The notes beneath the pieces were generated by a model, which was not told the origin of the DNA, searched no databases, and saw only the letters and a list, made by a program, of their open reading frames with translations. The position numbers were made by a program, and so were the translations under genes. Below, in pieces: positions 26,055-31,908 of a DNA stretch of 64,000 nucleotides; position 1 is the first letter of the stretch, and every line of letters begins with the position of its first letter. Origin of the DNA: Anaerolineae bacterium (lineage in GTDB: Bacteria; Chloroflexota; Anaerolineae; UBA4142; SHND01); assembly GCA_020851635.1 (NCBI GenBank), contig JADZCJ010000144.1:62001-126000 (forward strand), read 5' to 3'.

Positions 26055-27368
26055 TCAGACCGGAAAAAGTGTCGTTACGATCAAGATCGCGGACAAGCCG
26101 ATCAGCACGATCGTAGTTCCCCACCCCATGACGTTCACCACGTGAGAATTGACAAAGGCGCCCATGAGCCGCTTGTTGTTGGCAAGCCGCAGCATCAACA
26201 CCAGCAACACGGGCAATAGAATGCCGTTCAAGAGATAGACATAAACAAAAATCTCAAACAGCGGCAGCCCCGGAATCATTGCGACGATGGCGCCAACCAC
26301 AATCAGCGCGGTATAAATGCCGTAAAAAATCGGCGCATCCGACAATTCCTGGTTGACACCCCGTTCCCACCCGAACGCCTCGCAAATCGCATAGGTCGTT
26401 GAAAGCGGCAAAATGGACGCCGCGAGCAGCGACGCCCCCAATAGACCTATCCCAAAGAGCGCGACCGCAAGCGGACCGGCAATTGGCTCCAGCGCCAGCG
26501 CGGCTTGTTCTGCTGTTTCGATGGATGTGACGCCGTTCGCATTGAGCGTCGCCGCCGTGGCGATAATGATAAAATAGGCAAACGCCCCTGACAGAATGAC
26601 CCCCAAAAGGGTCTCCCAGAAGACGAAACTGTATTCTTCGGGCTTGGTGCCCTTGTCGAGCGTCGCCGCCGACAGCGTGAACTGCATATACGGGCTGATC
26701 GTCGTGCCGATGATGGCGATGGTCAACAGGACAAAGTCGCGGTCGGGATAAATCGTCGGAACGAACGTGCCATAAATCACCGCCCCCCAATCCGGTTCCG
26801 CCAGGAACGCCGCAAAAACATAAACCACAAGCACGGCGGAAAGCGCGAGAAAAATTTTTTCGGCGCGTTTGTAATTGCCGCGCGCCACAATAAACCAGAC
26901 GGCAACAGCTGCCACCGGGACGGGGAGATAACGGCTGATGCCAAACAATTCACTCGCCGCCGCAATGCCGACAAATTCGCTGATGGTCACTGCCGCGTTT
27001 GCAATAAAGAGCGTGAGCATGGCAAACCCGGTTGTGCGGACACCAAATTGTTCGCGAATCAGGTCGGACAAACCCTTGCCGGTGACAATCGCAATGCGCG
27101 CCGTCATTTCCTGAACGACCGCGAGCGCAATGATGACAACGACCAGCGCCCAGAGCAGCGTGTAACCGTATTTTGCGCCAACAACCGAATACGTGCCGAT
27201 CCCACCCGCGTCATCGCCGGCAATGGCTGACACGAGACCGGGACCGAGAATCGAGAGGAACGTCACGACCGCCAGCGCGCGACCCGTCGCGGGGATGCGC
27301 GGGAACACGCGCCGTTTGACAGAGGCACGTCGCGGAACGAGTCGCTGAAGCCATGTCCGCAACTTCAT
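26055..27368 (-). CDS. Nramp-family divalent cation transporter, divergent at the metal site
   Basis: 437 residues, eleven hydrophobic segments as in Nramp/SLC11. The first helix has GPGLVSAIAGDDAGG where Mn/Fe transporters have DPGN; the sixth has IIGTTISPYMQF where they have the MPH motif. The metal-coordinating Asp is thus kept, but the Asn and the soft-metal-selecting Met appear to be replaced (Gly and Ser). Loss of this Met is known in Nramp-related magnesium transporters and in aluminium transporters. The N-terminal 30 residues are strongly basic. It lies 45 bp downstream of a soluble MgtE-N/CBS protein at the end of the ccm run. I infer a hard-ion substrate, perhaps Mg2+; canonical MntH function is less likely. 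Confidence 0.8.
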   Translation of the reverse strand: MKLRTWLQRLVPRRASVKRRVFPRIPATGRALAVVTFLSILGPGLVSAIAGDDAGGIGTYSVVGAKYGYTLLWALVVVIIALAVVQEMTARIAIVTGKGLSDLIREQFGVRTTGFAMLTLFIANAAVTISEFVGIAAASELFGISRYLPVPVAAVAVWFIVARGNYKRAEKIFLALSAVLVVYVFAAFLAEPDWGAVIYGTFVPTIYPDRDFVLLTIAIIGTTISPYMQFTLSAATLDKGTKPEEYSFVFWETLLGVILSGAFAYFIIIATAATLNANGVTSIETAEQAALALEPIAGPLAVALFGIGLLGASLLAASILPLSTTYAICEAFGWERGVNQELSDAPIFYGIYTALIVVGAIVAMIPGLPLFEIFVYVYLLNGILLPVLLVLMLRLANNKRLMGAFVNSHVVNVMGWGTTIVLIGLSAILIVTTLFPV

Positions 27369-27413
27369 ATAGAGTCTGCGCCAAATAAAAGATTCCGGCA
27401 GCGAACCGTCCGC

Positions 27414-28667
27414 TTAGCGGAACAGACGCGGGAGTTTCACTTTCCATTCTTGCGGTAAAAGCATTTCGAGCGCATCGTCGGCAGTGACGATTCCCTGCAA
27501 TTGGTTGTCCTCGTTGACAACGGGGATTGCGAGCAAATTGTATTTCGAGAGTTCTTCCAAAACCTCATCGCGCGGCGTCGTCAGCCCGGCATACACCGGG
27601 TTGGTCCGCATGAGCTGCTCGATTGGTGTCTCCGGCGCTGCCAAAACAAGATTGCTCAGTGACAATACTCCGAGCAGCTTGTCATCAGGGTCGAGCACAT
27701 AGACATAATAGATCATTTCCGCTTCCTGGGCATCCGGATCATTACGCAGGTATTCCAACGCCTGTCCAACCGAGATCTCGGGCGGCACCGAAGCGTAATT
27801 GGTCGTCATCAACCCGCCCGCGGTATCCTCCTGGTGCGCCAGCAGCTCTTGCACATCCTCGCGCTCTTCTTGCTCCATCAAGTCCAAGACCGCCTGGCGT
27901 TTTTCGGGCTCGAGTTCGTTCAACAAGTCAGCCGCCTCGTCCGGCTCCATCTCTTCGACAATGTCAGCCGCCCGTTCTTTGCTGAATGATTCCAGCACTT
28001 CTGCCTGAAAATCGGTCTCGAGTTCCATCAAGGTGTCGGCAATCTTTTCGTCGCCCAGATCGCGGATCAAATCGCCCGCGCGCCGCGGACCCACGTCCTC
28101 GAGAATTTCGGCAATGTCCGCGGGATGCAACTCGTTAAAGTTCTGACGCGACACATTCAAACGCACGCCCACCTCGGGCAAAAACGACAGGTCACACCAT
28201 GCGACGGCGTGGTTCGGGATTTGCCGATTGAATCGTTCGACAATGCGCTCGGCGAAATTCTCTACGCCCAGACGACGCAGCAGCCCGCGCCCGCCAACGT
28301 CAACGTTCAGCAGGCGATAATCGCTGCCGATGCGGCCCAATTCCAGATCGTTCACTCGCACCATACGGTGGTCTTCGACATCAATCACCTGCTTGTCCAT
28401 GACATCGCGCGCGAGATAGATTTCCTGCCCGGTCTCCTGATACGGTTGGGGCTGGGTCTGGAGGACAATGATGTTACCCGCCAAATCCTCAGTGCCAAGC
28501 CATGCGAGCAGGTTGGCTGCAGCATTCCCGTTTTTGAGCGCGAGCGCGACGACGCGCGGATAAGCCGATTTCTCTTCCGGCAGGATGAGCAAATCGTTCA
28601 AGCGCCCCAGCGTCATGCCGCGATGATCGCGGACCGCGCGCCCAATCAGTTCGGATAAATATGCCAT
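27414..28667 (-). CDS. Soluble PRC/MgtE-N/CBS protein
   Basis: 417 residues without any membrane segment. Two PRC-barrel-like modules (YLSELIGRAVRDHRGMTLG at the start, then DVMDKQVIDVEDHRMVRVND) occupy about 1-150. An MgtE intracellular N domain of acidic helical repeats follows (about 175-290: LHPADIAEILEDVGPRRAG, MEPDEAADLLNELEPEKR). The C-terminus is a CBS pair (about 295-405: AGGLMTTNYASVPPEISVG, LGVLSLSNLV, GIVTADDALEML). In MgtE channels the same N-CBS unit senses cytosolic Mg2+ and gates the pore, but here the pore is missing. Its partner may be the Nramp-type transporter 45 bp downstream. It starts 15 bp after the ccdA stop, so it is probably co-transcribed with the ccm run. Confidence 0.85.
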   Translation of the reverse strand: MAYLSELIGRAVRDHRGMTLGRLNDLLILPEEKSAYPRVVALALKNGNAAANLLAWLGTEDLAGNIIVLQTQPQPYQETGQEIYLARDVMDKQVIDVEDHRMVRVNDLELGRIGSDYRLLNVDVGGRGLLRRLGVENFAERIVERFNRQIPNHAVAWCDLSFLPEVGVRLNVSRQNFNELHPADIAEILEDVGPRRAGDLIRDLGDEKIADTLMELETDFQAEVLESFSKERAADIVEEMEPDEAADLLNELEPEKRQAVLDLMEQEEREDVQELLAHQEDTAGGLMTTNYASVPPEISVGQALEYLRNDPDAQEAEMIYYVYVLDPDDKLLGVLSLSNLVLAAPETPIEQLMRTNPVYAGLTTPRDEVLEELSKYNLLAIPVVNEDNQLQGIVTADDALEMLLPQEWKVKLPRLFR

Positions 28668-28682
28668 CAGCCGATTTTGAGA

Positions 28683-29441
28683 TTATTGGTTGAGCGAAAT
28701 GCCCATGATCCGGGCAAAGGTCTCTTCAAATTCAAAAATGAACGCGGGGGTGAGTTGGTAGAAATAGGCGTTCAGTACCTGAAAGCGGTCAGTCACCAGC
28801 ATGATGCCCACGAGGATCAGAATCGCGCCGCTGACCATCTCGATTGGGCGCAGATATTTGTTAAAGTTCCGGAGCCGCATCACCATCGTATCCAGCGCAA
28901 ACGCGGTGAGCAGAAACGGGACCCCCAAGCCCGCCGAATAGACCAGCAGCAGCGCCGTACCCTCCAACGCGGTCTGGGTCTGAGTGGCGGCGGTCAGGAT
29001 CAACGAAAGCATGGGACCCACACAGGGCGTCCATCCCGCCGCAAACGCCATGCCCGTAAGAAACGAACGCGGATAGCCGAGCTCGTTCATCCGCAGCTGG
29101 ACGCGCGTGTCTCGGTACAAAAACGGAAGCTTGATAATTCCGAGCATATTGACTCCGAAAATGATCAGAATCACGCCCGACACATGCGCCAGCCAGAACT
29201 TGTCAATAAATTGGGTGAGGGCAAACAAGGCGGACCAGATGGCGACAAAAATCGTCGTAAAGCCCGCGACAAAGACGAGCGCGTGCGACATGACCTGACC
29301 GCGCGGGACCGTCACGCCTTCGGGTGTCACTGCCGCACCGCTCAGATAGCCCAGATAAATTGGCACAAGCGGCAGCACACAGGGGGATAAAAACGACAAC
29401 ATGCCTGCCCCAAATGCCAGGATCAACAATGGCATATTCAT
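28683..29441 (-). CDS. ccdA: CcdA-type thiol-disulfide transporter
   Basis: 252 residues, six to seven TM segments. The two redox cysteines are in LSFLSPCVLPLVPIY (TM1) and AAGWTPCVGPMLSL (TM4), the defining pair of CcdA/DsbD-beta proteins. It carries reducing equivalents across the membrane to reduce apocytochrome c CxxCH thiols before heme ligation. It is embedded in the ccm cluster directly after the ccmD-like gene, with no extracytoplasmic thioredoxin (CcmG) in view. The C-terminal 25 residues (FEFEETFARIMGISLNQ) are amphipathic. Confidence 0.92.
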   Translation of the reverse strand: MNMPLLILAFGAGMLSFLSPCVLPLVPIYLGYLSGAAVTPEGVTVPRGQVMSHALVFVAGFTTIFVAIWSALFALTQFIDKFWLAHVSGVILIIFGVNMLGIIKLPFLYRDTRVQLRMNELGYPRSFLTGMAFAAGWTPCVGPMLSLILTAATQTQTALEGTALLLVYSAGLGVPFLLTAFALDTMVMRLRNFNKYLRPIEMVSGAILILVGIMLVTDRFQVLNAYFYQLTPAFIFEFEETFARIMGISLNQ

Positions 29442-29456
29442 ACGTACGTGCCCGTC

Positions 29457-29651
29457 CTACTCTTGGTCTTGGTCGTCCGATTCCGCAGGGCGCAGTTTTT
29501 TCAGCTCATCCACCTCCCTTTTCAGATCGCGATTGCGCCGCGAAATCGTCCACAAATACAAAAACAACAAGGTCCAAATGACGCCATAGGCAAAAAACAG
29601 AAAAGAGAGATTGCGTACTTCGCGCAAAATTTCGATCAGTCGTTCTTCCAT
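29457..29651 (-). CDS. CcmD-like small membrane protein
   Basis: 64 residues from ATG 29651 (GGGGATGAC before it); a TTG eight codons upstream is less likely. One TM segment (LSFLFFAYGVIWTLLFLYLW), then a basic stretch and a charged tail (RRNRDLKREVDELKKL, probably coiled). Size, topology and position immediately after ccmC match CcmD, which releases holo-CcmE from CcmC/CcmAB. Sequence conservation in CcmD is low, so the assignment depends on context. Short genes like this are often missed. Confidence 0.75.
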   Translation of the reverse strand: MEERLIEILREVRNLSFLFFAYGVIWTLLFLYLWTISRRNRDLKREVDELKKLRPAESDDQDQE

Positions 29652-29711
29652 GTCATCCCCACACGCGTCCAACAACAGGTCCGCCGCCGGTCATTGGACG
29701 CGTTGTTCTAT

Positions 29712-30404
29712 TTATTCTGCGTATTGTTCGCGCAGCTCTGCCACGTCACTTTCCAGTTCCGCCAACTTGGTGCGTTGGTACAACAAATAAAGATACAACA
29801 GAATCATCGCTGAAATGCACACAAACAGAGTAATGAGCATATTGGGCGTCATCCCAAAGGTAAATTCGCCGCCCGCCTCGCCTTCCAGCACCGGATGCAA
29901 GCCCTTCCATATACGCGGGGCAACCATGATAAACGGCACATCAATCGCGCCGATAAACGTAAAGACTGCCGCAATGCGCGCAATGGTCACATCATCGCGC
30001 GCTGACGCGCGCAGCATGATATAAGCGACATAGACAAGCCATAAAATCAGAAACGAGGTCAGGCGCGCTTCCCACGTCCACCAGGTGCCCCAGACGGGGC
30101 GCGCCCAGAGCATTCCGGTCGCAAGCGAAATCGCGCCAAAGAGGACGCCGAGCTCCATGCACGAATAACTGATGCGGTCATATTTGGGCTTGCCCGTCCG
30201 CAAAAAGAGGGCGGCCGTCACTGCCGCGAGAATGATCGAAATGATGGACGCGGCGTTCGAGCCCATGTGAAAGTAAAAAATCCGCTGGATCGAGCCCATG
30301 CTCGCTTCGGTCGGCGCAAAGACAAACGCAAAATAGAGCGCGACGGCGATGGCAATGAACGCCGCAATTCCAAGAAAGTCAGACCAGTTGCGTGTTTTGG
30401 TCAT
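29712..30404 (-). CDS. ccmC: Heme transfer protein CcmC
   Basis: 230 residues from ATG 30404, chosen because GAGGT lies seven bases before it; the ATG at 30410 abuts that site. Six TM segments. The tryptophan-rich WWD loop is WGTWWTWEARLTSFLILW, and the flanking heme-ligand histidine of the first outer loop is in RIFYFHMGSN. The second histidine-bearing loop has RIWKGLHPVLEG. It loads heme on CcmE at the outer face of the membrane. The C-terminal 25 residues form a charged coiled segment (KLAELESDVAELREQY) that resembles the tail of the ccmD-like protein. Confidence 0.93.
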   Translation of the reverse strand: MTKTRNWSDFLGIAAFIAIAVALYFAFVFAPTEASMGSIQRIFYFHMGSNAASIISIILAAVTAALFLRTGKPKYDRISYSCMELGVLFGAISLATGMLWARPVWGTWWTWEARLTSFLILWLVYVAYIMLRASARDDVTIARIAAVFTFIGAIDVPFIMVAPRIWKGLHPVLEGEAGGEFTFGMTPNMLITLFVCISAMILLYLYLLYQRTKLAELESDVAELREQYAE

Positions 30405-30429
30405 TCGCATACCTCACAGCCGGAGTTAA

Positions 30430-30456
30430 CGGGTTGTCAGAGTGAAATCAAATCAC
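30430..30456 (+). repeat. Dispersed repeat A, copy 3
   Basis: GGGTTGTCAGAGTGAAATCA followed by AATCAC, in the 76-bp gap between ccmB and ccmC. It is the only sizeable gap inside the ccm run. Confidence 0.6.
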
Positions 30457-30486
30457 GGTTATCGCGGGGATATGATGTCATACGCA

Positions 30487-31158
30487 CTATTCTTCGACGA
30501 CATATTCAAACGTCAAAAAGGCGGCTGTCACAAAAATGATATCGTACGCGACGAGCAGGGTGAACCAACCCTGATAATCGGAAAAAGGCAGGTTTTGCAG
30601 CGCGCCCTGCGTGATTTTGACAGCGGCGACCAGCAGCGGGACGAGCACCGGAAACATCAGGACGGGCAGCATTACCTCGCGCATGCGGGTGGACGCCGCA
30701 ATTGCCGAGAGGAGCGTTCCAATCGCCGAAAAGCCAAGCGTGCCCAGTATAATATACCCAACCAGCGGAAACCACATGATAGGCACGTTGAACAAAATCA
30801 CAAACAACGGCAGAGTCACCGCTTCCATCAACACGATAAAAATAAAATTGGCTGTCGCTTTGGCGAGAAAAATGGCGCCGCGATCAACGGGCGCCAAAAG
30901 CATCCCTTCCAAACTGCCCTTGTCGCGTTCGCGCGCAAACGAGCGCCCCAAACCCAGGATTCCGCTGAAACAGATTGCCACCCACAACAAGCCCGGTCCC
31001 AGGACCAGTATATCCACACCCTGCAATTCGAACGCGAAATTGAAAATGACAAGGACAAGGAGCGAAAAGACCAGCATGGCGCTCAAGACTTCACGAGTGC
31101 GCCATTCGATGGCGAGTTCTTTGCCAAGAATGGCGTAAACCTGACGGAGAAATCTCAT
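30487..31158 (-). CDS. ccmB: Heme exporter permease CcmB
   Basis: 223 residues, six TM segments, normal length. N-terminal IAIEWRTREVLSAMLVFSLL-like sequence (here LAIEWRTREVLSAMLVFSLL) and FARERDKGSLEGMLLAPVDR are strongly characteristic of CcmB. It forms the membrane part of the CcmAB ABC complex that helps release holo-CcmE from CcmC. Its ATG follows the ccmA stop directly (TAA then ATG), so translation is coupled. Confidence 0.93.
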   Translation of the reverse strand: MRFLRQVYAILGKELAIEWRTREVLSAMLVFSLLVLVIFNFAFELQGVDILVLGPGLLWVAICFSGILGLGRSFARERDKGSLEGMLLAPVDRGAIFLAKATANFIFIVLMEAVTLPLFVILFNVPIMWFPLVGYIILGTLGFSAIGTLLSAIAASTRMREVMLPVLMFPVLVPLLVAAVKITQGALQNLPFSDYQGWFTLLVAYDIIFVTAAFLTFEYVVEE

Positions 31159-31908
31159 TTACGCCTTTTTCTTGGCGGTCCCGCCGCGTTTGTCCGCCTG
31201 CTCTGCCGCCTGCGCCAACCGTCCCGCATACAGCTGCGCAAAGCCCGCCGCGTCCGTCCATTCACTGCGCGCGCCGTCATAAATGATTCTGCCGTTCCGC
31301 ATGATCAGCGCGCGGTCTGCCGCAACCAGACTGCGCTCGAATTCGTGCGACGAAAAAAGGACGGTCGCCCCATCCCCCCGCGCCTTTTCAAACAGTCCTG
31401 TCAGCACGATCGAAGAATTCTGGTCCAGCCCCGTCCAGGGTTCATCGAATAGCAAGACCCTGGGGTTGTGCAAGAGCGCCCGCGCCAGCGCCACCCTCTG
31501 CTGATAGCCCCGTGATAGAGTGCGGATCGTGTCGTCCAGACGCTTGTCAATGCCTACCTGTCTGGACACCTCCAGAATTCTTGCGTCAAGCCCGCCCAGA
31601 GCATACAGCCGCCCATAGTAGCGCAGGTTTTCATAGATTGACAACTCGTCGTACAACAACGTCTGGTGCCCAACATAACCGATGGTCGCCCGCGCCTTCA
31701 TCGCGCCATCGGGGATTTCGATGCGGTTGACCGCCACACGTCCGCGAGTGGGACGCGCGAGCGTGGCAAGAATCTTGAGGAGCGTGGACTTGCCTGCGCC
31801 ATTGGGACCGGCGAGCACGACCACCTGCCCCGCCTCGATCGTCAGCGTCGTGTTCTTGAGCGCCTGCCGCACGCCGTATGTCTTTTCCAGTCCAAGAGTC
31901 TCTATCAT
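31159..31908 (-). CDS. ccmA: Heme exporter ATPase CcmA
   Basis: 249 residues. ABC ATPase motifs: Walker A AGPNGAGKSTLLK, Q-loop region VGHQTLLYDEL, signature LSRGYQQRVALARALL, Walker B PRVLLFDEPWTGLD and switch His in FSSHEFE. It energises the CcmAB complex at the cytoplasmic membrane. The C-terminal 35 residues extend past the ABC fold and are Ala/Gln/Lys-rich. Its ATG overlaps the stop of the upstream membrane protein gene (ATGA). Confidence 0.93.
   Translation of the reverse strand: MIETLGLEKTYGVRQALKNTTLTIEAGQVVVLAGPNGAGKSTLLKILATLARPTRGRVAVNRIEIPDGAMKARATIGYVGHQTLLYDELSIYENLRYYGRLYALGGLDARILEVSRQVGIDKRLDDTIRTLSRGYQQRVALARALLHNPRVLLFDEPWTGLDQNSSIVLTGLFEKARGDGATVLFSSHEFERSLVAADRALIMRNGRIIYDGARSEWTDAAGFAQLYAGRLAQAAEQADKRGGTAKKKA

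Follow-up and report, generated by a model that had tools for sequence, protein, structure and literature searches.

A pore-less MgtE-type protein encoded beside an NRMT-class Nramp carrier: a candidate two-gene Mg2+-uptake unit in an Anaerolineae bacterium

What could the cytosolic, Mg2+-sensing half of an MgtE channel be doing when it is encoded as a separate protein, next to a carrier of the Nramp superfamily? The question is raised by two genes on the minus strand of a 64,000-nucleotide stretch of an Anaerolineae (Chloroflexota) genome, hereafter the window. A gene for a 417 aa pore-less MgtE-like protein (27414-28667, minus strand), which we call the partner, lies upstream of a gene for a 437 aa NRMT-type Nramp carrier (26055-27368, minus strand), with a gap of 45 nt between them. 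The original prediction was that the Mg2+-sensing half of MgtE had been joined to a different transporter as a regulated importer. We favor this reading, to which we assign a probability of roughly 55%: the two genes would form one Mg2+-uptake unit, an NRMT importer with a detachable MgtE-type sensor acting on the carrier.

The gene pairing itself is common among bacteria and has been known since 2014, when Shin et al. (PMC4072509) described NrmT with an adjacent gene for an MgtE cytosolic domain, linked the pair to riboswitches and proposed cytoplasmic feedback, so that this part of the prediction had been anticipated; the role of the MgtE-like fragment was left open. The window pair resembles their operons (Ca_c0685 and the Acidobacterium capsulatum genes Acp2976-2977) in that an NRMT gene adjoins a homologue of the MgtE cytosolic domain with the same proposed feedback role, and Acp2976-2977 also has the same order, with the fragment upstream. 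It differs from these operons in having no M-box, and from C. acetobutylicum, where the partner is split, in having a single intact gene. The PRC domain is unmentioned in that paper, and Mg2+-ligand retention, the basic tail and the membrane-bearing form of Coriobacteriales are not found in it. What is added here is the PRC architecture, the ligand conservation, the basic tail, the mutual exclusion of NRMTs and MgtE channels and the Coriobacteriales intermediate, none of which we found in the literature searched, the coverage of which is incomplete; within the same coverage, subsequent tests of the partner were not found.

The upstream gene had been predicted to carry PRC, MgtE-N and CBS modules without a membrane domain, and Pfam, hydropathy and an AF2 model all bear this out. 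MgtE_N (2.4e-27, residues 180-281) and two CBS domains (2.7e-21, residues ~288-404) are well matched in the window partner, whereas its PRC barrel (residues ~1-75) scores 19.6 bits, below the curated cut-off of 21.2; PRC is clear in the family, with a match in 46/52 members (best 2.1e-14). A possible second, diverged PRC-like repeat (residues ~85-157) has weak support (hhalign probability 51%, E 1.5e-4). The window partner has no membrane segment (maximum 19-residue hydropathy 1.39), and its AF2 model is that of a soluble, confidently folded protein (pLDDT 90.3), for which the best PDB match in a fold search is the MgtE cytosolic domain in its Mg2+-bound form (E 1.1e-20, TM-score 0.84 on the target). 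When compared with the T. thermophilus MgtE channel (2yvx/2zy9), the N domain and CBS pair align over residues 173-404 (1e-34 to 1e-35). Unlike that channel, the partner has no transmembrane domain (PF01769), has a PRC domain added at its N terminus and, ending 13 residues past CBS2, lacks the plug helix that bears E258/D259 (Mg2 and Mg3 sites). This acidic helix is replaced by a basic C-terminal tail, WKVKLPRLFR (residues 408-417; 27417-27446, minus strand). Partners in general end 12-13 residues beyond CBS2 in a basic tail, with a median net charge of +4 versus -4 for the TtMgtE plug stretch; in carrier-linked Chloroflexota partners the tail often reads LPxxWKKRLPRLF, and partners linked to pyrG have no Trp.

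The Mg2+-sensing residues of MgtE are largely kept in the partner. After checking the TtMgtE numbering on 15 residues and taking the Mg2+ sites from PMC5882242, we counted ligands in 69 Chloroflexota partners and in 63 partners from other phyla. The Mg6 ligand D95 is Asp in 69/69 and 63/63 of them, respectively; the Mg4 ligands D91 (64/69 and 52/63) and D247 (68/69 and 55/63) are mostly Asp, and an acidic residue (Asp or Glu) occupies the position of the Mg7 ligand E59 in 62/69 and 53/63. The Mg4, Mg6 and Mg7 ligands of T. thermophilus MgtE are kept or conservatively changed. The window partner carries D211, D243, D247, N377, D398 and E401 in its own numbering; its codons D243 to D247 (27927-27941, minus strand) hold the equivalents of TtMgtE D91 and D95, and codon D398 (27474-27476, minus strand) that of TtMgtE D247. 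The Mg5 ligand D226 is Asn in the window partner and in most others. Since 41 of the 232 columns of the MgtE part are conserved at least as strongly as the ligand positions, the retention of ligands is selective but partly inherited. The MgtE ATP pocket (F227, N203) is lost in partners. Its Phe227, kept in T. thermophilus MgtE, is Leu in the window partner, which also has Ser/Asn at R187/D188, and in 69/69 Chloroflexota partners; because these residues are replaced, ATP regulation as in MgtE is disfavored.

The downstream gene had been predicted to encode an Nramp-like carrier with the Asn and Met of the metal site replaced, and this proved correct. The product matches Pfam Nramp (1.8e-91) and has D53-x-x-G56 in place of DxxN in helix 1 (Asn to Gly; D53-A-G-G56 codons at 27201-27212, minus strand), T222-x-x-S225 in place of AxxM in helix 6 (Met to Ser; T222-T-I-S225 codons at 26694-26705, minus strand), and neither of the proton-path histidines of helix 6b (Y227, L232). 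Ramanadane et al. (PMC8806188) defined NRMTs by DxxG-TxxA/T versus DxxN-A/CxxM in Mn/Fe carriers, and described them as lacking the helix 6b histidines and proton coupling. By its sequence, the window carrier is an NRMT. Its closest solved structure is EleNRMT of Eggerthella lenta (7qia; 1.7e-108, phmmer 367 bits), the next family being MntH (4e-24, 89 bits), and in a quick ML tree with SH-aLRT values and no bootstrap it groups with EleNRMT (SH-aLRT 90) and is separate from MntH; the M-box-controlled NrmT of locus L115 joins them in a larger clade (SH-aLRT 84). The window carrier and EleNRMT have the DxxG/T changes, the lost histidines and the clade in common, but the Met position is Ser in the former and Ala in the latter. 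With canonical MntH/Nramp proteins (the MntH of the window genome, DraNramp) the carrier shares the fold, the superfamily and the metal-site Asp, whereas DxxN/AxxM and the proton-path His are replaced. The Gly of DxxG was found in 53/56 sequences of one set and 81/81 of a wider one. Ser at the Met position occurs in 11/56 and 8/81 relatives, a minor allowed state with respect to the published consensus TxxA/T, and in none of 12 M-box-linked Bacillota carriers.

From this class assignment we infer that Mg2+ is the main substrate of the window carrier. It would be unlikely, in our estimate, that the carrier mainly imports Mn2+ and that the partner responds to Mn2+ or to the general divalent load, as has been suggested for the A. 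capsulatum pair. The A. capsulatum NrmT gave full rescue of a Mn2+ defect but partial rescue of a Mg2+ defect, the latter only at low millimolar Mg2+, and the pair behaved as a Mn2+ carrier on which co-expression of the MgtE-like gene had no effect (PMC4072509), which weighs against the functional part of the original prediction. Transport of Mn2+ persists in EleNRMT and EcoDMT triple mutants, and the site residues do not by themselves predict Mg2+ transport (PMC8806188). When the 64-kb window was scanned for the M-box (RF00380) or any other Rfam element, there was no match at the gathering threshold, which is consistent with a Mn2+ carrier and led us to reject a riboswitch within the window. 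However, the window genome encodes a separate canonical MntH elsewhere (locus L001, with DPGN and MPH), and in the tree the window carrier sides with EleNRMT and is separated from L174 and L183, carriers of Acidobacteriia gp1 that are possibly related to the A. capsulatum protein. The distribution of MgtE channels also argues against the Mn2+ reading.

In Chloroflexota, the NRMT and its sensor stand in for the MgtE channel. Among 400 genomes of this phylum, 16 have both an NRMT and the MgtE channel domain (PF01769), 178 only the NRMT, 111 only MgtE and 95 neither, a near-exclusion with an odds ratio of 0.077 (p 3e-24, a value that, like the one for genera, is inflated by shared ancestry). The counts by genus, in the same order, are 17, 96, 65 and 44 (odds ratio 0.12, p 3e-12), while the test on hand-counted families is weak (odds ratio 0.43, p 0.087). 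Thus part of the genome-level signal reflects shared ancestry, and the genus-level signal holds. This near-exclusion points to a shared Mg2+ role. The window genome itself has one CorA, and a genome-wide search found no PF01769 and no MgtE_N protein besides the partner. An M-box is present upstream of 12/13 Bacillota loci tested, and also at L115. In a Pelosinus MAG, a partner-NRMT operon has two M-box riboswitches in tandem upstream (163 and 161 bits; L114:3082-3571).

The original prediction depended on the two genes occurring together in other genomes, and the pair is widespread, with conserved order and strand. In the 400 Chloroflexota genomes, the carrier query matched 194 at E<=1e-40 and the partner query 289 at E<=1e-15, a count that includes full MgtE proteins. 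Ninety of the 134 long partner matches have a listed carrier no more than 1.5 kb away, and in 87 of these 90 adjacent pairs the genes share a strand with the partner upstream; several apparent orphan partners adjoin more divergent NRMTs. A search with only the carrier also gave 80 named NRMT loci, which come from Bacillota, Thermodesulfobacteriota, Nitrospirota, Acidobacteriota, Omnitrophota, Actinomycetota and others. A PRC-MgtE_N-CBS gene is immediately upstream in 63 of them; two have another order, 11 are without a partner (some of these being M-box-controlled) and four are without upstream sequence. Because the pair recurs across many phyla, its arrangement is not due to chance. Viral copies were limited to one partial match.

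How the partner would act can be outlined as follows. The carrier, a proton-uncoupled NRMT, would import Mg2+, and could also pass Mn2+, through a widened site made of hard ligands only, and the partner would be the cytosolic half of an MgtE that has lost its channel. At high cytosolic Mg2+ its acidic N domain and CBS dimer would bind the ion and close up, and falling Mg2+ would change its shape. By touching the carrier or the inner face of the membrane, the partner may shut or slow the carrier in Mg2+-replete cells, with contact perhaps made by the PRC domain and by the basic tail that takes the place of the plug helix, although these contact points are a guess. Ca_c0685 works without its partner (PMC4072509), and a partner that basal transport can do without is more like a brake than an obligatory subunit.

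The same dispensability would be expected if the partner were a Mg2+ sensor or buffer acting elsewhere, on another transporter, a regulator or PRC-linked targets, with the two genes merely co-expressed. Carriers without a nearby partner are in line with this, as are the Ktedonobacteria-type genomes (L091-L101, L103), where a PRC-MgtE_N-CBS gene with a different C-terminal tail lies beside the CTP synthase gene (pyrG) with no adjoining carrier. The ~560 aa ORF upstream of these orphan partners was considered as a second transporter class, and reads by sequence as PyrG. Such loci, together with the NRMT loci that have no partner, indicate that neither gene strictly needs the other in cis. Nor did any of the surveyed loci encode partner and carrier naturally fused in a single ORF, an arrangement that would suggest contact; long open frames that resembled fusions contain the genes in different frames or parted by a stop. 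These partner-less and carrier-less loci and the missing fusion also count against the Mg2+-uptake unit, together with the lack of a window riboswitch, the Ser at the Met position and the Asn at Mg5. However, the tight adjacency of the genes, in fixed order and strand over many phyla, makes action elsewhere improbable, and the membrane-bound partners of Coriobacteriales, which keep a plug helix, are what would be expected of a protein working at the membrane beside the carrier.

In Coriobacteriales MAGs related to the host of EleNRMT, a partner homologue is present in 54/61 genomes. The related carriers adjoin a partner with a membrane domain, in contrast to the soluble partner of the window; in the lineage of the best-studied NRMT, as seen in relatives, the partner has kept plug helix and membrane domain. 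At 28 of 30 inspected loci the protein continues for 195-239 residues after CBS2, and at the other two for only ~40. In this extension the acidic residues of the plug helix are retained (EEEHxEDL, with little or no variation); it lacks the GGNxGxQ pore signature that is present in the MgtE of locus L070, and PF01769 gave no match in the two proteins scanned. An AF2 model, with an overall pLDDT of only 72.7, predicts a continuous plug helix followed by about five long helices, and the best Foldseek matches are full-length MgtE structures over ~450 columns with poor superposition (rmsd 18). From these relatives of E. lenta and such models, we interpret the extended form as an MgtE channel that has decayed and been retained as a membrane-bound partner, possibly an intermediate between the MgtE channel and the soluble partner. 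Loci L123:3099-4991(+), L149:56-1918(+) and L187-L215 combine a kept plug helix with a fast-evolving region of about five membrane helices and no pore signature, while L207 and L216 have a single membrane helix after the plug helix.

Although the decayed membrane domain and the NRMT/MgtE near-exclusion would also suit a partner that is a functionless vestige, left when the NRMT displaced an old MgtE channel, the Mg6 and Mg4 aspartates, the PRC residues and the gene order are strongly conserved in many phyla and therefore under purifying selection, which leaves the vestige very improbable. Returning to the regulated unit, we tentatively propose that the gating module of MgtE now serves as an independent regulatory subunit controlling a carrier of the unrelated LeuT-type fold, and that a PRC-MgtE channel encoded next to an NRMT gene decayed step by step to give rise to it. 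The putative series would run from the Coriobacteriales form, with plug helix and signature-less membrane domain, through the few with a single anchor, to the soluble basic-tail form of most phyla, window included. If the partner gates the carrier, one Mg2+-sensing module would control both a channel and an unrelated carrier. With the pairing general and the Mg2+ ligands under selection, the old speculation on the partner is now directly testable.

A few loci have unusual arrangements. In a Geothermincola MAG (L164:3336-5225), the NRMT is followed by a 199 aa PRC-only protein with no MgtE part, and in one Chloroflexota genome (G281, L070:3001-6982) the genes for a partner, a divergent NRMT and a full MgtE channel are consecutive. 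In the window, the Mg2+ pair lies directly behind a cytochrome c maturation-type run (27414-31908 for the whole) of an ABC ATPase, a membrane subunit, a CcmC-like gene (29712-30410) and a CcdA/DsbD-type gene (28683-29441), all on the strand of the partner and carrier; only 15 nt separate the stop of the CcdA/DsbD-type gene from the start of the partner gene.
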